DNA from: Chitinophaga sp. 180180018-3
GTDB taxonomy: Bacteria; Bacteroidota; Bacteroidia; Chitinophagales; Chitinophagaceae
Length of the DNA stretch: 64,000 bases
NCBI RefSeq assembly: GCF_037893185.1
Contig: NZ_CP140772.1
Coordinates: forward strand, 6,076,001 to 6,140,000
Reading direction: 5' to 3'
A program made the position numbers and the translations under genes. This document shows positions 52,796 through 61,149 of the stretch, in pieces (the stretch's first letter is position 1; every line of letters starts with the position of its first letter). The notes beneath the pieces were generated by a model that did no database searches, had not been told where the DNA came from, and saw nothing but the letters and a program-made list of their open reading frames with translations.

Positions 52796-53794
52796 CTACT
52801 GCTTAAACACCCGCGGTCTGCGTTGTTCCAGCAGCACAAAATCGGCCAGTACCATAGCTGTTACGGCTTCCAGTACTACCGGTACGCGGAGCGCAATACA
52901 GAGGTCGTGGCGACCTTTCACACTGAAGGTCTCCACTTCTCCGGTTTTGATATTGAGTGTTTGTTGTTCTTTAGGCGTACTGGACGTAGGTTTCACAGCA
53001 ATACGGAATACCAGCGGGTTGCCGTTGGTGATACCGCCAACTACGCCACCTGCGTTATTGGTAGCCGTTTTCCCGGTTTTATCGATAATGGGATCATTAT
53101 GTTCCAGGCCTTTCATTTTAGCGGCAGCAAAGCCGGCGCCAAATTCAATACCTTTTACCGCCGGGATCGCGAATACGGCATGTGCCAGCGATGATTCCAG
53201 TGAATCGAAGAAAGGTTCACCCAAACCAATAGGCAATCCGTCTACCACGCATTCCACGATACCTCCCACAGAATCTTTTGCAGCAATAGCTGCTTCCAGT
53301 CCTGCTTCCGGATCGGGGTTACCGCCTACTTCCTTAATGACGGCATTCACCTGGATGCTTTCTCCCAATATCTTTTTGGCGATCACCCCGGCAGCTACCA
53401 GGTTCAGGGTAAGCCTGCCGCTGAAATGCCCGCCGCCACGATAATCTTCAAAGCCGCCGAATTTTTCGGTAGCTACGAAATCAGCATGTCCCGGACGGGG
53501 AAATTCACGCAGCTTTTCATAATCGGTACTGCGTGTATTATTATTCTCGAAAAGAATCGTCAACGGAGCTCCGGTGGTGTAATCATTGAAAACACCTGAT
53601 TTGATAAAAGGAAGGTCTTCTTCCTTGCGGGGAGTGGTGCCCCTGGCACCGCCCTTGCGGCGCTCCAGATCGGCCAGGAAATCTTCCTGCTTCAAAGGAA
53701 TACCAGCCGGTACCCCGTCTATATTCACGCCAACACTGGCGCCATGCGATTCTCCAAAAACATTTACCCTGAATAATCTGCCAAAACTGTTCAC
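52796..53794 (-). CDS. aroC: Chorismate synthase
   Basis: A 332-residue FMN-dependent enzyme that removes phosphate from EPSP to give chorismate. Motifs: FRVNVFGESHGASVGVNIDGVPAG, RRKGGARGTTPRKEEDLPFIKSGVF (read in two parts), FPRPGHADFVATEKFGGFEDYRGGGHFSGR in pieces, GKTATNNAGGVVGGITNGNPLVFR and GRHDLCIALRVPVVLEAVTAMVLADF. The start is taken as GTG at 53794 (reading MNSFGRLFRVNVFGE) because that matches the family beginning; no ATG fits. Last gene of the seven-gene operon. Confidence 0.95.
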   Translation of the reverse strand: MNSFGRLFRVNVFGESHGASVGVNIDGVPAGIPLKQEDFLADLERRKGGARGTTPRKEEDLPFIKSGVFNDYTTGAPLTILFENNNTRSTDYEKLREFPRPGHADFVATEKFGGFEDYRGGGHFSGRLTLNLVAAGVIAKKILGESIQVNAVIKEVGGNPDPEAGLEAAIAAKDSVGGIVECVVDGLPIGLGEPFFDSLESSLAHAVFAIPAVKGIEFGAGFAAAKMKGLEHNDPIIDKTGKTATNNAGGVVGGITNGNPLVFRIAVKPTSSTPKEQQTLNIKTGEVETFSVKGRHDLCIALRVPVVLEAVTAMVLADFVLLEQRRPRVFKQ

Positions 53795-53845: not shown

Positions 53846-55108
53846 CTATACGTTAACGGCTACATGAGCGCCCAGCAATTCCAGGTGGTCATAAAACTCC
53901 GGATAGGATTTATTGATAGCTTCTGCATTATCAATCACTACAGGGCCATCGGCCGTTAATGCAGCAACAGCGCAGGCCATCGCAATACGGTGATCGTTAT
54001 GAGAATGCACCTGTGCGCCTTTGATACCGGTACCTCCATGCACGAGCATCAGATCGCCTTCGAGATCGATGCTGATACCCATTTTTCCGAATTCCTGTTG
54101 CAGGGTCAGCCCACGGTCGCTCTCCTTATGCGCCAGGCGGCTCACTCCTTTTATTTTCGTAGTACCGTTACAGTTAGCAGCCAGCGCTACCAGCGGAGGA
54201 AACAGATCAGGGCAATCAGTAGCATCAAATTCAAAAGCTTTCAGGTCACCTTTTACGATATTCACGGTGAACACGCCCGACATCATCTGGGTACCTGCTT
54301 TCTCCAGGGCTTCCAGGATGGCTTTATCCGACTGTGCAGAAGAAGTATTCAGATGCTGTACTTCCGCTTTACCAGCTACTGCAGCTGCTACCAGCAAAAA
54401 TGCGGCGCCACTCCAGTCGCCTTCCACCGTGTAATCGCATGACTTGTAAGCCTGTTGCGGTCCGAAGTGAAATGTTTCGAAATTCTTTTCTTCCACCCGT
54501 ACTCCGAAGTGCGCCATCAGCTGAAGGGTCAGCGCAATGTAAGGTTTGCTTTTCAGGTCTTTTACGGTGATAGTCACATTTTCAGCAGCAGCCCCATAAG
54601 CCATGAGCAGCCCGGTGAGAAACTGGGAGCTCAGCGATCCGTCGATGGTAATATCTTTAGGCTGCAGCGGTCCCTGTATATGCAGGGGAAGCTTGCCGCC
54701 GTTGGTAGTACATTTTACATCCAGTTGTGGCAGTACCTGTTCAAAAAAATCCATCGGGCGGGTAGTTAAGCTGCCGTGCCCTTCAATCGTAATAGGCAGT
54801 GACGATAATGCTGCGATGGGCGTGAACATACGAATGCCCAGGCCTGATTCACCGCAGTTGATCTCATCGTAGAAAGGGTGCACACCATTGCTGGTAATCT
54901 CAAAGAAATCGTGTTCCCTTTTGATCTTTGCGCCGAGGTTTTCAGCTACTTCCAGAGCGGCCAGGCAGTCGTTGCTAAGGCCCGGATTACGGATAATCGT
55001 TTTTCCCTTAGCCAGCAAAGCCGCTGCCACAGCGCGTTGCATGGCGCTTTTGGAAGGATTGGCCGTAACAGAGCCTTTAATGGTAGCTGGTGATACAGTA
55101 ACTTGCAT
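53846..55108 (-). CDS. aroA: 3-phosphoshikimate 1-carboxyvinyltransferase (EPSP synthase)
   Basis: A 420-residue enzyme joining shikimate 3-phosphate and PEP. It starts MQVTVSPATIKGSVTANPSKS. Family motifs present are SKSAMQRAVAAALLAKG, NCGESGLGIRMFTPIAAL, LPLHIQGPLQPKDITIDGSLS, SLSSQFLTGLLMAYGAA, and SHNDHRIAMACAVAAL near the C terminus. Fits class I/II AroA length. It lies 51 bases upstream of aroC and 35 bases downstream of aroB. Confidence 0.95.
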   Translation of the reverse strand: MQVTVSPATIKGSVTANPSKSAMQRAVAAALLAKGKTIIRNPGLSNDCLAALEVAENLGAKIKREHDFFEITSNGVHPFYDEINCGESGLGIRMFTPIAALSSLPITIEGHGSLTTRPMDFFEQVLPQLDVKCTTNGGKLPLHIQGPLQPKDITIDGSLSSQFLTGLLMAYGAAAENVTITVKDLKSKPYIALTLQLMAHFGVRVEEKNFETFHFGPQQAYKSCDYTVEGDWSGAAFLLVAAAVAGKAEVQHLNTSSAQSDKAILEALEKAGTQMMSGVFTVNIVKGDLKAFEFDATDCPDLFPPLVALAANCNGTTKIKGVSRLAHKESDRGLTLQQEFGKMGISIDLEGDLMLVHGGTGIKGAQVHSHNDHRIAMACAVAALTADGPVVIDNAEAINKSYPEFYDHLELLGAHVAVNV

Positions 55109-55143: not shown

Positions 55144-56172
55144 TTATAATTCCTGCAGTAACAGCTTCAGCTCTGCAATTGGAATAGGCATAGTGGTGGC
55201 CTTTCCTATCTCTTCCAGCAATACAAAATGAATGACATCCTTCTCTCTTTTTTTATCCAGTTTGAAGATATCAAACACCGCATCTTTATCGGATGTAAAA
55301 GCTACGGGAAGCTGATAGTCGGTAAGCAGGCGAATCAGCCGGATGGTGCTGCTGTTCGGCAGGTCCATCAGTTTTTCGGAAAAGCGGGTTGCTGCCACCA
55401 TTCCTATAGCCACTGCTTTACCATGTGCAATATGTTCCAGTTTTTCCACTGCATGCCCCAGCGTATGGCCAAAGTTGAGCCAGCGACGGGGGCCGTTTTC
55501 CAGCTCATCTTCCAGTACTACTTGGGTTTTGGCTGCAACAGATTTCTCCACCAGATATTCCAGCACGGCTACATCGCGTGCCAACGCCCTTTCCTTATGT
55601 TCTTCCAGATAATCAAATAATTCCGCATCCATGATGCAGGCATATTTAATGATCTCTGCAAATCCGTTATGCCATTCTTCTGCCGGCATTGTCAGGGGCA
55701 GGGAATAATCGAAAAGAATGAACTGCGGCTGACGGATAATTCCCAGCAGGTTTTTCTGCCTGCCATGACTGATCCCATTTTTGCCACCAATAGAAGCATC
55801 TACCTGAGCCAGCAATGTAGTAGGTACAAAGCCAAAAGGAATACCGCGCATGTATATACTGGCGGCGAACCCGGCTACGTCGGTCATCATACCGCCCCCG
55901 ATACCTACAAGGGTAGTTTTACGATCTGCTTCAAAACCAATGAGCCCGTCGATGATCTTTTCCACCGTTGCCATATTCTTCACCTCTTCTCCGGCTGGCA
56001 CCACAATTTTTTTCCATTCGTGCAGGTGATGACCATGAAAGCGTTCCACATTTTCATCTATCACCAGTACAGCCCGGTGGCGGTCGACATGGTTACCCAA
56101 TTGCTGCAGACTTTCACCGAGAAAATACGTGGTTTCCGTTTGTTGAAACCTGTGGACTTGTTTTACGGACAT
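55144..56172 (-). CDS. aroB: 3-dehydroquinate synthase
   Basis: A 342-residue NAD- and metal-dependent enzyme that closes the carbocyclic ring in the second shikimate step. Motifs: VPAGEEVKNMATVEKIIDGL, TTLVGIGGGMMTDVAGFAASIYMRG (nucleotide site), FVPTTLLAQVDASIGGKNGI, EIIKYACIMDAELFDYLEE and RRWLNFGHTLGHAVEKLEHIAHGKAVAIGM (the HxxxH zinc region, in pieces). Preceded by a 99-base gap that has its own hairpin. Confidence 0.95.
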   Translation of the reverse strand: MSVKQVHRFQQTETTYFLGESLQQLGNHVDRHRAVLVIDENVERFHGHHLHEWKKIVVPAGEEVKNMATVEKIIDGLIGFEADRKTTLVGIGGGMMTDVAGFAASIYMRGIPFGFVPTTLLAQVDASIGGKNGISHGRQKNLLGIIRQPQFILFDYSLPLTMPAEEWHNGFAEIIKYACIMDAELFDYLEEHKERALARDVAVLEYLVEKSVAAKTQVVLEDELENGPRRWLNFGHTLGHAVEKLEHIAHGKAVAIGMVAATRFSEKLMDLPNSSTIRLIRLLTDYQLPVAFTSDKDAVFDIFKLDKKREKDVIHFVLLEEIGKATTMPIPIAELKLLLQEL

Positions 56173-56271: not shown

Positions 56272-57372
56272 TTACTGTTCGTTCATCACTCTGTTCTGGC
56301 GGTTGATGGATTCCAGGTGTACCGCGTCAAAATATTTCAGGATGAATTCTTTGGTCAGGCCCAGTTTTTCACCTTTTGCAATCGCGCGGTCGAGGATCTC
56401 ATTCCAGCGGTTAGTTTGCAGAATGGTGATATTGTTTTCTTTTTTGAACACACCGATCTTCTCAGCAATTTTCATACGATTGCCGAGCAGCAGCATGATC
56501 TCATCATCCACCTGGTTGATCTGAGCGCGGAGTTTTTCGAGTGCAGAGTTGAAATCTTTCTTATCAGTATGTTCTCTTCTCCACTGGATACCATCGAGCA
56601 GTTCAGCGAATTTCTCCGGTGTAATCTGTTGTTTGGCATCGCTCCATGCGTTGTCCGGATCTACGTGAGTTTCTACCATCAGACCATCGTAATCGAGGTC
56701 GATCGCTTCCTGGGAAACCTCCTGCAGAATATCGCGGCGACCGGAGATATGGCTGGGATCGCAGATCATCGGCAGTTCCGGCATACGGCGTTTCAGTTCA
56801 ATCGCGAGGTGCCACATAGGCGCATTGCGGTATTGCGTATTACCATAGCTAGAGAAACCGCGGTGAATAAGTCCGAGTTTGTTAACACCGGCTTTCTGGA
56901 TCCTTTCAACAGCACCAAGCCACAGTTCCAGATCGGGATTGATAGGGTTCTTGATCAATACAGTAGTATCCACCCCTCTGAGTGCATCCGCTACTTCCTG
57001 TACGGAGAAAGGATTCACGGTAGTACGGGCTCCTACCCAAAGAATATCCACACCAAAATGTAATGCATCTTCCACTTGTTTGGCAGTAGCTACTTCCACT
57101 GCTAAAGGCAGGCCGGTGAGTTCGCGGGCTTTCTGCAGCCATGCCAGCCCCTTAGTACCGATACCTTCGAAGGAACCGGGGCGGGTACGTGGTTTCCAGA
57201 TACCGGCGCGTAATACATCTACTTTACCGGTTTTCTGCAGGGCGAGTGCGGTGGCCAGTACCTGCTCTTCAGTTTCTGCGCTGCAGGGACCGGAAATGAT
57301 CAACGGCTTTTTGTCGGAAGACGGATCGGAGAATTTGGTTTTGGATAATATTTGTTCCATTGTCTGTACCAT
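56272..57372 (-). CDS. Bifunctional DAHP synthase/chorismate mutase
   Basis: A 366-residue fusion. Residues 1 to about 265 form a class I-beta type 3-deoxy-7-phosphoheptulonate synthase: KPLIISGPCSAETEEQVLATA, VLRAGIWKPRTRPGSFEGIG, ILWVGARTTVNPFSVQEVADAL, VLIKNPINPDLELWLGAVE, PMICDPSHISGRRD and YDGLMVETHVDPDNAWSDA. After a linker comes an AroQ-type chorismate mutase of about 90 residues (ALEKLRAQINQVDDEIMLLLGNRMKIAEKIGVFKKENN, in pieces). The mutase probably also serves as the prephenate-dependent feedback sensor, as known for such fusions. Confidence 0.93.
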   Translation of the reverse strand: MVQTMEQILSKTKFSDPSSDKKPLIISGPCSAETEEQVLATALALQKTGKVDVLRAGIWKPRTRPGSFEGIGTKGLAWLQKARELTGLPLAVEVATAKQVEDALHFGVDILWVGARTTVNPFSVQEVADALRGVDTTVLIKNPINPDLELWLGAVERIQKAGVNKLGLIHRGFSSYGNTQYRNAPMWHLAIELKRRMPELPMICDPSHISGRRDILQEVSQEAIDLDYDGLMVETHVDPDNAWSDAKQQITPEKFAELLDGIQWRREHTDKKDFNSALEKLRAQINQVDDEIMLLLGNRMKIAEKIGVFKKENNITILQTNRWNEILDRAIAKGEKLGLTKEFILKYFDAVHLESINRQNRVMNEQ

Positions 57373-57405: not shown

Positions 57406-58248
57406 TTATTTCAGTATTTTTTTGATCTTATTTGACTTTTGAATCAGTTTGTAAAATGTGTCGTAGTCTTCCGTTTCCAGCAGTGATTTCATCTGCTGTA
57501 ACTGACTGATATGTTCGTCGAGCACATCCAGTACATTGTTGCGGTTATGCTTGAAGATGGGCACCCACATATCCGGAGAGCTCTTTGCCAGTCGTACGGT
57601 GGATTCAAAACCACCACTGGCCAGTTCGAAGATGCGGCCGGATTCTTTTTCTTTCTTGAGCACCGTTAGTGCCAGTGCAAAAGACGTGATGTGAGAGATA
57701 TGAGAAACATAGGCGGTATGCAGGTCATGTTCCTCACCGTTCATATATACGGTGCGCATCTGCAGCTGGTCTACCATGTTTTCTACTACTTCCAGGGCGT
57801 CATCATCGCTGTTTTTCACATCACAAAGCACCATGGTTTTATTGGCGAAGAGGTTGCGTACAGCGGCATCGGGACCGGAATACTCGGTGCCGGCCATCGG
57901 ATGGGCAGCCACAAAGCGACCTCTGTTGGGATGACCGGCAACGAGTTGCAGTATTTTTTCTTTGGTGGAGCCTACATCCATAATCACCTGACCGGGGCGG
58001 ACTTTATCCATGATTCCGGGCAGTGCTTTCAGCAAAGCATCAACAGGGATGGCCAGGATGACCAGATCAGCGCGAAGCATGGCATCATCGAGAGAAGCTG
58101 CTTCATCAATGATATTTAGTTCCAGGGCACGTTGCAGGTGTTCCTGATTCTGGTCGACCCCTATGATCCGCGATGCTACGCCTTTTTCTTTCAGCGTAAT
58201 AGCCAGCGAACCGCCTATTAATCCTGTTCCTAATATTGTAACAATCAT
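57406..58248 (-). CDS. tyrA: Prephenate dehydrogenase
   Basis: A 280-residue NAD(P)-dependent TyrA that converts prephenate to 4-hydroxyphenylpyruvate for tyrosine. The Rossmann motif GTGLIGGSLAI starts at residue 7; other family segments are VIMDVGSTKEKIL, FVAAHPMAGTEYSGPDAA and AYVSHISHITSFALAL, followed by a helical dimer domain. No ACT or mutase domain is fused. It overlaps the aminotransferase gene by 4 bases. Confidence 0.94.
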   Translation of the reverse strand: MIVTILGTGLIGGSLAITLKEKGVASRIIGVDQNQEHLQRALELNIIDEAASLDDAMLRADLVILAIPVDALLKALPGIMDKVRPGQVIMDVGSTKEKILQLVAGHPNRGRFVAAHPMAGTEYSGPDAAVRNLFANKTMVLCDVKNSDDDALEVVENMVDQLQMRTVYMNGEEHDLHTAYVSHISHITSFALALTVLKKEKESGRIFELASGGFESTVRLAKSSPDMWVPIFKHNRNNVLDVLDEHISQLQQMKSLLETEDYDTFYKLIQKSNKIKKILK

Positions 58249-59408
58249 TTTACGTTGGTTTTGATACGATCTATCGCTTCCTGGAAAACTTTTTCATCCT
58301 GGCAAAGGCTTACCCTGATATAGCCGTTACCGTTACTGCCGAAGATACCGCCGGGAGTAATGAATACCCGGGCCTTCTGCAGGATTTCATCTGTGAGCGT
58401 ATAACCATTTTCAGCGGTGGCGGGGATCTTCGCCCAAACGAACATGCCCACCTGGTTTTTATCATATGTGCAGTGCAGCAGGTCCAGTAACTGAAATACT
58501 TTTTCCCTGCGGGCACGGTAAATTTTATTCAGATCGTTGTACCATTCTTTGCCCAGGCCCAGTGCTTTTACTGCGGCCATTTGCATAGGCTGGAACATGC
58601 CTGAGTCCATGTTGCTTTTGAAACGCAGCACTTCGCCGATCCAGCTGGCTTTACCCACCAGCATCCCGATACGCCAGCCAGCCATGTTAGACGACTTACT
58701 GAGTGAGTTCAGCTCCAGCACCACGTCTTTTGCTCCTTCGAACTGCAACAGGCTTTCCGGTTGTTCATTCAGGATGAAGCTATACGGGTTATCGTGGCAG
58801 ATCAGTATATTATGTGCTTTGGCGAAAGCGATCAGCTTCACAACAAACTCCCTGTTCAACTTAGCGCCGGTAGGCATATGCGGGTAGTTTACCCACATCA
58901 GCTTTACTTTGCTGAGATCTTTCTTGCTGAGAGCCTCCAGGTCTGGCAGCCAGCTGTTTTCTTCCTTCAGGTCGTAATCCACAACAGTGGCGCCGCTCAG
59001 GTTTACAGCGGAGCGATAGGTGGGATATCCCGGATTCGGGATTAACGCTTCATCCCCCTCCTGCAGGTAGGTCATGCAGATGTGCATAATCCCTTCCTTG
59101 GAGCCAATCAGCGGCAGCACCTCGGTATCCGGGTTAAGGGTTACCTGGTAGTAGCGCTGGTACCAATCGGCCATTGCTTTGCGCAGTGCCGGGATACCCT
59201 TATATCCCTGGTAAGCGTGGGTATTAGGCAGGGAAGCATTTTCCTTCAGTGCGTCCACTACATCCGGATGCGGAGGCAAGTCGGGGCTACCGATGCCCAG
59301 ATTAATCACCCTGGTACCGGTTTGGTTCATTTCATCGATTTCCCGGAGCTTTTTGGAGAAATAGTATTCTTCCGTGCCTTGCAATCTTTTAGCGACCTGT
59401 ATCTGCAT
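58245..59408 (-). CDS. Class I/II PLP aminotransferase (probable aromatic/aspartate aminotransferase)
   Basis: A 387-residue fold-type I aminotransferase. The PLP lysine is Lys238 in NSLSKSSNMAGWRIG. Others: VINLGIGSPDLPPHPDVV, NTHAYQGYKGIPALRKAMADW, PLIGSKEGIMHICMTYL, ALIPNPGYPTYRSAV and the C-terminal NGYIRVSL. Its position between pheA and tyrA points to transamination of phenylpyruvate and 4-hydroxyphenylpyruvate. LL-diaminopimelate aminotransferase-like sequences are similar, so substrate range is inferred from context. Confidence 0.9.
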   Translation of the reverse strand: MQIQVAKRLQGTEEYYFSKKLREIDEMNQTGTRVINLGIGSPDLPPHPDVVDALKENASLPNTHAYQGYKGIPALRKAMADWYQRYYQVTLNPDTEVLPLIGSKEGIMHICMTYLQEGDEALIPNPGYPTYRSAVNLSGATVVDYDLKEENSWLPDLEALSKKDLSKVKLMWVNYPHMPTGAKLNREFVVKLIAFAKAHNILICHDNPYSFILNEQPESLLQFEGAKDVVLELNSLSKSSNMAGWRIGMLVGKASWIGEVLRFKSNMDSGMFQPMQMAAVKALGLGKEWYNDLNKIYRARREKVFQLLDLLHCTYDKNQVGMFVWAKIPATAENGYTLTDEILQKARVFITPGGIFGSNGNGYIRVSLCQDEKVFQEAIDRIKTNVK

Positions 59409-59416
59409 AAAACTGA

Positions 59417-60241
59417 TTAATGTGTTTTTCCTTTTTTATAAATACCCAGCACTTTCAGGTGTTCTGTCAGCGGTTCAATTTTCGCGAGCGCTTTTTCAAA
59501 GTGCGCGGTGTTGTCAAATTCCATATCAGCGTGGAAGTAATAATTCCATTCTTTCGCTGGGATGGGAAAAGACTGTAGTTTAGAGAGATTTATACCGGCA
59601 TCGGCGATTTTAGTCAGCACTTTAGCCAGGCAACCTCTGTCATGGCTGGTTTGAAAATAAACCGAAGCTTTGTTAGCATCTTCGGGAGCAGCCACGGGCG
59701 TGCGCGAAACAGCCAGGAAGCGGGTATAATTATTTTTTACGGTATGGATATTAGGAGCGATGATATCGAGCTCAAATATTTCAGCAGCGAGCTTACCGGC
59801 GATAGCAGCTGTACTTTTCAGCTTTTTTTGTCTCACATGTTTAGCGCTGAGGGCGGTATCTTCCGTTTCTACCAGCTTGATATGCGGGTATTTCTCGAGG
59901 AAATCCATGCATTGGAGCAGTGCCATCGGATGGGAATGTACTTCGCGGATATCTTCGAGTGTTTGCCCTGGTAATACCATCAGGTGTTGATTGATCTGGA
60001 GGTAGAGCTCTCCGGTGATATGCAGGCCGGAATTTTTGATAAGGGTGTAGTTAGGTAAGATGCTGCCGGCGATGGAGTTCTCTATGGCCATAATACCTGC
60101 GTCCACATCGGGTTGTTGTTTCACCTTTTTAACCAGCTCTGCGAAGGATGCGCAGCATTCTACTTCGGTTTGTTTACCGAAATATCCCTGTGCGGCTACC
60201 TGGTGGAAAGATCCTTCAAACCCCTGAATGGCGATTTTCAT
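59417..60241 (-). CDS. pheA: Prephenate dehydratase
   Basis: A 274-residue monofunctional PheA that makes phenylpyruvate. The dehydratase domain starts KIAIQGFEGSFHQVAAQGYF, contains GIMAIENSIAGSILPNYTLI, HPMALLQCMDFLEKYP and the NNYTRFLAVSR motif near residue 172. The C-terminal ACT domain includes GCLAKVLTKIADAGINLSKLQSFPIPAKEW (in pieces), where phenylalanine normally binds for feedback inhibition. The mutase domain of E. coli PheA is missing here and is instead fused to DAHP synthase. First structural gene of the operon, behind two attenuators. Confidence 0.95.
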   Translation of the reverse strand: MKIAIQGFEGSFHQVAAQGYFGKQTEVECCASFAELVKKVKQQPDVDAGIMAIENSIAGSILPNYTLIKNSGLHITGELYLQINQHLMVLPGQTLEDIREVHSHPMALLQCMDFLEKYPHIKLVETEDTALSAKHVRQKKLKSTAAIAGKLAAEIFELDIIAPNIHTVKNNYTRFLAVSRTPVAAPEDANKASVYFQTSHDRGCLAKVLTKIADAGINLSKLQSFPIPAKEWNYYFHADMEFDNTAHFEKALAKIEPLTEHLKVLGIYKKGKTH

Positions 60242-60292
60242 GTGTATCTGATTGATTTTATTTATTTATAGTTGCTGTAGCAACTAGCTGTT

Positions 60293-60329
60293 AAAAACAG
60301 AAAGGGCCCCGTCTGCGGGACCCTTTGCG
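60293..60329 (-). terminator. Attenuator terminator 2
   Basis: Minus-strand stem AAAGGGTCCCG / CGGGGCCCTTT (one T-G pair), loop CAGA, followed by CTGTTTTT. It lies 23 bases past the stop codon of leader ORF 2. Its 5' arm can instead pair with the last codons of leader ORF 2. Confidence 0.9.
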
Positions 60330-60352
60330 TAGTACTTTTATTTGTAAGTATA

Positions 60353-60439
60353 TTATTGCAAACGAGTCCCCTGCTTCTTCGCATAAAAGAAGTAAGAGAA
60401 GTAATAAAAGAAATAATTATTTGACACTGGTTGTAACAT
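60353..60439 (-). CDS. Leader peptide 2 (Phe/Tyr-rich, 28 residues)
   Basis: The ORF begins MLQPVSNN, then runs YFFYYFSYFFY (ten of eleven residues are Phe or Tyr: five of each), then AKKQGTRLQ and TAA. Such clustering is not expected by chance and matches leader peptides that sense charged tRNA-Phe and tRNA-Tyr. After a stall in the cluster, bases 60371-60358 (GGGGACTCGTTTGC) stay free to pair with 60328-60317 (GCAAAGGGTCCC) and so prevent terminator 2. If translation reaches the stop, the ribosome covers them and the terminator forms. Too short for standard gene finders. Confidence 0.88.
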   Translation of the reverse strand: MLQPVSNNYFFYYFSYFFYAKKQGTRLQ

Positions 60440-60463
60440 ATACTTAGTTAAGATATTGATATT

Positions 60464-60495
60464 AAAAAGGCCTTCCGGTTTCGGAAGGCCTTTTT
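60464..60495 (-). terminator. Attenuator terminator 1
   Basis: A 14-base stem AAAAAGGCCTTCCG / CGGAAGGCCTTTTT with a 4-base loop, ending in T residues on the minus strand, 33 bases past the stop of leader ORF 1. It is symmetrical and so could also stop plus-strand transcripts, but no plus-strand gene precedes it. Confidence 0.92.
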
Positions 60496-60527
60496 GTAGT
60501 CTCTTTTATTTTTTACAAACGACCTCC

Positions 60528-60587
60528 CTATTCCTGGTACCAGAAATAATAAAAGCTAAAAAAGCCAAAGGTGGTTTGCTTAATCAT
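60528..60587 (-). CDS. Leader peptide 1 (Phe/Tyr/Trp-rich, 19 residues)
   Basis: Reads MIKQTTFGFFSFYYFWYQE then TAG. Between residues 7 and 17 it has five Phe, three Tyr and one Trp, so it can respond to all three aromatic amino acids. A possible antiterminator is GGTCGTTTGTA (60524-60514), just behind the stop, which can pair with TACAAAAAGGCC at the base of terminator 1 through TTTGTA/TACAAA and GGTC/GGCC with a small internal loop. Its start context is the same as that of leader 2. Confidence 0.87.
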   Translation of the reverse strand: MIKQTTFGFFSFYYFWYQE

Positions 60588-60616
60588 GTACTTAGTTATT
60601 GTTTTTGACGATAGAA

Positions 60617-60646
60617 CAAAAATACGGCACGATTTTAAATATCCAA
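60617..60646 (-). promoter_or_regulatory. Promoter of the aromatic operon
   Basis: Minus-strand TTGG at 60646-60643, an 18-base spacer and TATTTTTG at 60624-60617. The transcript should begin about 20 bases before leader ORF 1. Confidence 0.6.
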
Positions 60647-60737
60647 GTGGGTTGCCGAAAAAATATTTTTTTTTCAACAACAACTATAGTTTCTTAAAAT
60701 AATTTCAAAAAACAGGCGTAATTATACCGGACGGGGC
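60647..60737. other. A/T-rich gap between the lipoprotein terminator and the aromatic promoter
   Basis: Contains long A and T runs, nothing recognisable. It may act as an upstream element for the promoter. Confidence 0.3.
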
Positions 60738-60768
60738 AAAAAAAAACCGTTCCGGGTTACCGGAACGG
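60738..60768 (-). terminator. Intrinsic terminator of the Ala-rich lipoprotein gene
   Basis: Minus-strand CCGTTCCGG / CCGGAACGG, 4-base loop, nine T. It isolates the aromatic operon from the gene upstream. Confidence 0.93.
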
Positions 60769-60791
60769 CTATTTTATAAAAGCTCTTAAAA

Positions 60792-61040
60792 TTATTTGTG
60801 AGCAGCAACTGAGTCGATTTTCTTAGCAGCTGAATCAACAGCGCCTTTAGCAGCAGCAGCAACAGAGTCAACTGCAGTAGTAGCAGCGCTAGTAGCAGCT
60901 TTAGCAGCTGAATCGATAGCAGCGCCAGCAGCAGTTGCAGTAGAATCACCAGCGTTTTCAGTTTTAGCGCCACCGCCGCAAGCTACAGCGAAAATACCGA
61001 AAGACAGTGCTAAGAAACCAATTTTGATTACGTTCTTCAT
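60792..61040 (-). CDS. Small Ala/Ser/Asp-rich lipoprotein
   Basis: An 82-residue low-complexity protein. The signal MKNVIKIGFLALSFGIFAVACGGG gives a lipobox Cys at residue 21. The mature part is a chain of imperfect repeats of the type DSAAKAA, DSVAAAAKGA, DSAAKKIDSVAA, built almost only from Ala, Ser, Thr, Asp, Val and Lys, predicted to be a single long amphipathic helix. Such short lipoproteins may fill the envelope like Lpp, though this is only an analogy. Divergent from the sigma factor gene, with shared GGTNACC dyads between them, so it is a possible target. Confidence 0.75.
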   Translation of the reverse strand: MKNVIKIGFLALSFGIFAVACGGGAKTENAGDSTATAAGAAIDSAAKAATSAATTAVDSVAAAAKGAVDSAAKKIDSVAAHK

Positions 61041-61092
61041 GATACAATTAGTTTAAGTTGTTTTTTGAATGATTTAACCTTTATACCGGGGT

Positions 61093-61149
61093 CACCAAAA
61101 AGGTAACCCAAACTTTTAAAAAATTTTTTTTTCGGTACTTTGGGTTACC
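61093..61149. promoter_or_regulatory. GGTNACC inverted repeats between lipoprotein and sigma-factor genes
   Basis: GGTAACCCAAA (61102-61112) pairs exactly with TTTGGGTTACC (61139-61149). A third half-site GGTCACC lies just upstream (about 61090-61096). The copies are separated by A/T runs. In a divergent gap this may be an operator or the recognition site of the neighbouring sigma factor. Confidence 0.5.

Follow-up and report, generated by a model that had tools for sequence, protein, structure and literature searches.

The sequence analyzed is a window of 64,000 nucleotides from Chitinophaga sp. 180180018-3, whose genome is a single contig of 8.13 Mb. A cluster of seven genes from pheA to aroC lies on the minus strand of this window, and the gene identities were confirmed by Pfam matches (Table 1). 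On the same strand, the order of the elements leading into the cluster is promoter-like site, leader ORF 1, terminator T1, leader ORF 2, terminator T2 and pheA. An earlier note on this DNA had described two minus-strand leader ORFs with aromatic peptides, each followed by a terminator, ahead of a pheA to aroC operon, and this description was borne out by the sequence together with the Pfam assignments. Beyond what the note lists, each unit has an antiterminator strand, and one promoter-like site precedes unit 1.

Table 1. Features of the pheA leader, the operon and the adjoining upstream sequence (window positions)
Feature	Position	Strand	Description and basis
Small ORF, 82 aa	60792..61040	-	Ala-rich, small-lipoprotein-like; upstream of leader; followed by its own terminator
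Terminator after small ORF	60770-60745	-	Precedes promoter-like site
Promoter-like site	60617..60646	-	TTG (60646-60644), 19 nt, TATTTTTG (60624-60617); read from sequence
Leader ORF 1	60528..60587	-	MIKQTTFGFFSFYYFWYQE; Phe/Tyr/Trp codons (FGFFSFYYFWY), stop TAG; sequence, 60/60 loci
Unit 1 region 2 (antiterminator strand)	60521..60528	-	GGGAGGTC; starts at last base of ORF 1 stop codon
Terminator T1 (regions 3 and 4)	60464..60495	-	GC-rich hairpin, -22.2 kcal/mol, T-rich tail
Leader ORF 2	60353..60439	-	MLQPVSNNYFFYYFSYFFYAKKQGTRLQ; Phe/Tyr codons (YFFYYFSYFFY), no Trp; sequence, 60/60 loci
Unit 2 region 2 (antiterminator strand)	60358..60370	-	GGGACTCGTTTGC; within 3' end of ORF 2
Terminator T2 (regions 3 and 4)	60301..60326	-	GC-rich hairpin, -18.5 kcal/mol, T-rich tail to 60293
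pheA, prephenate dehydratase	59417..60241	-	First gene of cluster; PF00800
Class I/II aminotransferase	58245..59408	-	PF00155
tyrA, prephenate dehydrogenase	57406..58248	-	PF02153 + PF20463
DAHP synthase fused to chorismate mutase	56272..57372	-	PF00793 + PF01817
aroB, 3-dehydroquinate synthase	55144..56172	-	PF01761 + PF24621
aroA, EPSP synthase	53846..55108	-	PF00275
aroC, chorismate synthase	52796..53785	-	PF01264; inner ATG used, longer TTG start also listed

Each unit was found to contain a short leader ORF with codons for amino acids that the operon produces, a predicted intrinsic terminator between this ORF and the structural genes and, by computation, a mutually exclusive antiterminator that is free or covered depending on ribosome position. 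Region 2 of unit 1 can pair with GGCCTTCC (60490-60483) in the 5' arm of T1, and region 2 of unit 2 can pair with GCAAAGGGTCCC (60328-60317) at the 5' arm of T2. In the window, T2 has an imperfect tail (CTGTTTTT), and TAACTAAGTAYATG is present at both leader starts.

The DAHP synthase of the operon was the only one found in a profile search of the genome; the other PF00793 match was a KDO-8-phosphate synthase, and no match to PF01474 was obtained in the same search. Trp synthesis, too, therefore seems to draw its chorismate by way of the pheA operon. The Ala-rich ORF upstream of the leader had no Pfam match. Between T2 and the start of pheA lies a perfect palindrome, TAGTTGCTRYAGCAACTA (60269..60286), which may act as an operator or form a hairpin in the 5' UTR. 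A relaxed form of it was observed in 39 of the 60 distinct genus loci described below. This palindrome is the sole exact copy in the genome, and when two mismatches were allowed a reversed control pattern matched equally often.

Conservation, pairing and ribosome geometry

The search of relatives covered 59 genomes, of which 44 had PheA and 36 of these (the window's own included) were of the same genus as the window. The family search covered 294 genomes, 204 with PheA, and named genomes contributed 73 loci. Same-genus loci numbered 39, of which 38 were usable after L028 was left out (111 nt upstream); L039 (120 nt), L184 (16 nt) and L185 (91 nt) were likewise omitted for short upstream sequence. 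To the 38 were added 45 named loci, whose PheA is 76-95% identical to that of the window and 43 of which are titled Chitinophaga. The resulting 83 loci were cut to 60 with distinct last 420 nt because many named loci duplicate records already in the set. L145 and L160 were kept in the genus set despite their other titles since their PheA is 80% and 76% identical, respectively, while L189, titled Chitinophaga pinensis, was placed outside it for sharing just 58% PheA identity with the window. The latter is a metagenome-assembled record with one leader unit, and its label or binning is doubtful.

Both leaders were present in all 60 distinct loci of the Chitinophaga clade, as were the T1 and T2 hairpins (60/60 each). 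The division of codons pointed out in the earlier note, with Phe, Tyr and Trp in the first leader and Phe and Tyr in the second, was found to be kept, since a Trp codon occurs in leader 1 of 59/60 loci and in leader 2 of 0/60. The sole genus locus lacking Trp in leader 1, L016, has Cys instead (YYFCFQK). Synonymous change exceeded amino acid change in both leaders. In leader 1, pN/pS was 0.22 over the final 10 codons of 29 distinct sequences, and in leader 2 it was 0.21-0.52 across length classes. From these low values, the retention of the aromatic codons and the tolerance of synonymous change, the reading frames were deduced to be under purifying selection.

The unit detector was defined as an aromatic-dense ATG ORF plus a terminator. 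It returned no units when 186 upstream regions were dinucleotide-shuffled (930 shuffles) and none on the 186 reverse strands, and a chance origin of the leader units was rejected on this basis. Runs of six Phe/Tyr codons gave 33 matches in the genome and, among the 30 of these that were inspected, leader 2 alone has a terminator within 110 nt after its stop; leader 1 has no unbroken run of six such codons. A simpler detector showed one unit in L128, L137, L143 and L159, where both units were seen by eye and by later parsing, and a third, overlapping ORF in L124 was an artefact of this detector. The same detector missed L162, L165 and L166, in each of which an aromatic ORF and a hairpin were seen by eye.

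Pairing between regions 2 and 3 was compared within and between loci. The mean for the pairing of a locus's own strands was -15.2 kcal/mol in unit 1, versus -13.2 kcal/mol when strands were swapped between loci (51 distinct pairs), and -19.4 versus -17.4 kcal/mol in unit 2 (49 distinct pairs). In neither unit did any of 20,000 permutations, which ignore the relatedness of the loci, match the own pairing. Own pairing also surpassed cross-unit pairing in 60/60 loci for both units, with means of -15.2 versus -8.2 kcal/mol for unit 1 and -19.7 versus -8.8 kcal/mol for unit 2. The strands coevolve inside each unit and hardly cross-pair between units. Double changes that keep the pairing were observed in unit 2 of L021, where GGGCCTC faces GGGGCCC and a Thr codon becomes Pro, and in unit 1 of L033 and L047, where CCGGGGTTC faces GGGCCTCGG.

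The start of region 2 follows the first base of the last aromatic codon by a median of 10 nt in unit 1 and 14 nt in unit 2. For masked folding, a codon was placed in the A site, 12 nt were masked from its first base and the RNA was folded up to region 3; the footprint is assumed, kinetics are ignored, and a 2:3 helix means at least five paired bases of region 3. Ribosome placement at the last aromatic codon gave the 2:3 helix in 60/60 loci in both units, and placement at the stop codon left it in only 5/60 (unit 1) and 6/60 (unit 2). Within this model, the ribosome geometry is that of the classical attenuation switch, and it occurs twice. In unit 2 (60/60) and in 55/68 single-unit relatives, region 2 begins ahead of the stop codon, but in unit 1 it begins at the stop codon. 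Because its region 2 is positioned as in most single-unit relatives, unit 2 may be the ancestral type, which hints that it is older than unit 1.

Distribution beyond the genus

The detector was run on loci from the searches of relatives, family, order and class with at least 250 nt of upstream sequence. The 70 loci from other genera of the family were a sample from the 204 genomes with PheA, made up of the best-scoring and about one per further genus among the matches listed; 40 loci came from the order search (143/248 genomes with PheA) and 31 from the class search (73/246). Two units were found in 38/38 loci of the window's genus. Among the other genera of the family, 68/70 loci had one unit, two (L093 and L106) had none and 0/70 had two. 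The comparison across Chitinophagaceae that the earlier note had proposed thus shows the pair to be kept within the genus and not to be general in the family. Named loci from outside the genus likewise gave two units in 0/26 (28 in total, two too short).

In the same order, family f18 had two units in 13/31 loci, one in 17/31 and none in 1/31, and f19 had one unit in 5/5. Loci of f12 had one unit (2/4) or none (2/4), those of f3 had none (4/4), and the single loci of f2, f14 and f17 had no unit. Outside the order, 20/31 loci had one unit, 9/31 had none and 2/31 had two. These two, L281 and L282, carry two aromatic leader units each and both belong to f65, from which only these two loci were taken. 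G664, also of f65 and of another order than the window, has a PheA 63% identical to the window's. Since two units occur in separate lineages, the double arrangement presumably either has more than one origin or is old, with frequent losses.

The Trp codon is distributed differently outside the genus. Among the f18 doubles, both leaders contain Trp in, for example, L225, L226, L241 and L243, and neither does in, for example, L223, L227 and L231; the two units of L231 have similar leaders and terminators. Among the single-unit loci in the rest of the family, Trp was present in 10/68 leaders. Where ORF and antiterminator strand overlap, the peptide ends of these single leaders (L048-L071, L074-L119) diverge widely (RPGMLLL, SSRVVFAKA and AGVFC, among others), as if the RNA pairing had been kept rather than the peptide.

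Proposed mechanism and alternatives

We consider it highly probable that two ribosome-mediated transcription attenuators, each complete, lie in series on one leader transcript and must both be passed before pheA. Both ORFs are presumed to be translated and both hairpins to terminate transcription in the cell. If a ribosome were delayed at Phe or Tyr codons, and in leader 1 also at the Trp codon, regions 2 and 3 would be able to pair, and the terminator made of regions 3 and 4 would then fail to form; a ribosome at the stop codon would cover region 2 and the terminator would form. RNA polymerase would get to pheA only after passing both terminators and, if both units work, the output would be approximately the product of the two read-through probabilities. 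The response would be expected to differ by amino acid: shortage of Phe or Tyr would open both gates, while shortage of Trp alone would open only the first and lead to at most partial induction.

The two gates in series put forward in the earlier note are made more plausible by the conservation of both units, the coevolving antiterminators, the predicted ribosome geometry and the placement of promoter motifs. The motif TAnnTTTG, which we take to be a Bacteroidota promoter element, was found 25-40 nt ahead of leader 1 in 60/60 distinct loci, and between the two ORFs in 1/60 (L152). Because the motif precedes unit 1 and is nearly absent between the units, action in series appears to be the better reading. 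The attenuators could instead act in parallel on two transcripts if the second unit had its own promoter, as the motif in L152 would allow and as other promoter types might provide. This is judged very improbable, as the remaining 59 loci, including the window, lack the motif between the units and a sigma-70-type scan of the window gave no site between them on the minus strand.

Still less probable is that one unit is a left-over duplicate with no function. Duplication would be a simple origin for the arrangement, and the resemblance between the two units of L231 would fit with it, but a useless copy is at odds with the presence of both units in every distinct genus locus, their low pN/pS, their coevolving pairs and their switch geometry. 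Moreover, in whole-unit local alignments of unit 1 with unit 2 the median observed score was reached by 1.8% of shuffles, and past the last aromatic codon it was reached by 18%, so that, the aromatic codons aside, the units resemble each other no more than shuffles do, and an origin by tandem duplication is not claimed. We likewise give very little credence to the hairpins being controlled by a protein, a tRNA or a small molecule rather than by a translating ribosome, with the ORFs incidental. The palindrome between T2 and pheA is unexplained and leader translation is predicted from sequence, both of which leave room for such control; against it, the frames are under purifying selection with their aromatic codons kept and synonymous change allowed, the spacing between the last aromatic codon and region 2 is steady, and the 13 Rfam matches up to E = 1 in 59900..61100 included no T-box or riboswitch.

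What the doubling serves is a separate matter; the earlier note supposed that two gates would give sharper control and a built-in priority. The main rival to a ranked-input logic is a range-extending role, in which the pair of gates multiplies both repression and induction, and leader 1's Trp codon is not a separate ranked input. We regard this as a real possibility, though somewhat doubtful. It is consistent with the f18 doubles, where the Trp split is missing, and with the single leaders of other genera, in which Trp is not rare; the near-perfect split within the genus speaks against it, as does the finding that the only DAHP synthase detected sits in the operon, which is therefore a reason to sense Trp. 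The same finding makes it odd that, under strict series logic, the signal of a Trp shortage alone would be blocked at T2. The ranked-input proposal is that some Bacteroidota built two-stage ribosome-sensing attenuators before the pheA operon, perhaps more than once, and that in Chitinophaga the stages, with no cross-pairing and with split sensing, give a graded and ranked answer, with full induction on shortage of Phe or Tyr and partial induction on shortage of Trp. Taken as a whole, we hold this proposal to be evenly balanced between right and wrong.

Relation to known leader systems

Leader-peptide attenuation is a textbook one-gate device, and enterobacterial pheA and trp have a single leader-peptide attenuator each. 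Like each of the units described here, these consist of a leader ORF rich in product codons, an antiterminator and a terminator, but there is one such unit and not two. Tandem riboswitches and T-boxes (PMC12452182), B. clausii metE among the examples, resemble this leader in having two sensors in series. They sense by RNA structure, with no translated leader ORF.

The earlier note knew of no double attenuator of this kind. For amino acid biosynthetic operons, no tandem leader-peptide attenuator was found in open-access titles and abstract starts, which is weak evidence of absence as most subscription papers and supplements lie outside that scope. Tandem leader ORFs as such do have a precedent in the mgtCBR leader of Salmonella, where two short ORFs form attenuators in series on one leader transcript, as is proposed for the Chitinophaga pheA leader, and respond to ATP and proline, and the two signals together exceed the effect of one alone (PMC3641672). 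The mgtCBR operon is one of virulence and Mg2+ transport, whereas the Chitinophaga ORFs hold codons for the products of their own operon. Furthermore, the codon sets of the Chitinophaga leaders overlap and differ by Trp only, unlike the separate ATP and proline signals of mgtCBR. A second terminator in tandem was also reported for the rimP-leader in several Gammaproteobacteria (Naville and Gautheret 2010, PMC2965389). That leader is similar in that two terminators follow one another and the first of them has a potential antiterminator, but it is described in the text available with no leader peptide or amino acid codons (PMC2965389).

Before reporting theirs in bacilli, Naville and Gautheret stated that to their knowledge no leader-peptide system had been shown outside Proteobacteria and Actinobacteria, ermC aside (PMC2965389). 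Within the phylum of the window, clues of leader-peptide attenuation were reported for Flavobacterium amino acid operons (PMC9723704), and Bacteroid-trp (RF01692) is a listed candidate RNA (PMC2864571); the accessible portions of these accounts mention no tandem arrangement. In the Rfam scan of the window, the Phe_leader family RF01859 matched unit 1 with 42 bits (E 2.5e-5) and unit 2 with 23.5 bits, and the best score among seven loci scanned in relatives was 41.1 bits. The window scores are below the curated gathering cut-off of 55 bits, and the units were not assigned to this family.

Stacked gates, kept across a genus and present in other lineages, would show that leader-peptide attenuation can be stacked. 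They would make it testable whether stacking widens the range, sharpens the response or ranks the inputs, and the one-gate relatives in other genera of the family offer a natural comparison. The Chitinophaga pheA leader would thus be a clean system for such tests, and the lack of cross-pairing between its units is a feature that designs of stacked RNA switches can borrow.

Three other operons of the same genome (his, trp and ilv only) were inspected for leaders, and each had a single one. The his operon (L274) has one His leader ORF, MIRNTHIHHHHHILPQR, and the trp operon (L072) has one Trp leader ORF, MNNIIINIHWWWHGINS, behind which a hairpin was seen by eye that the scan had missed. The ilv region (L312) has one Val/Ile leader ORF with a VVIIVVVII run. 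From these single leaders, leader-peptide attenuation looks like a general habit of this genome.
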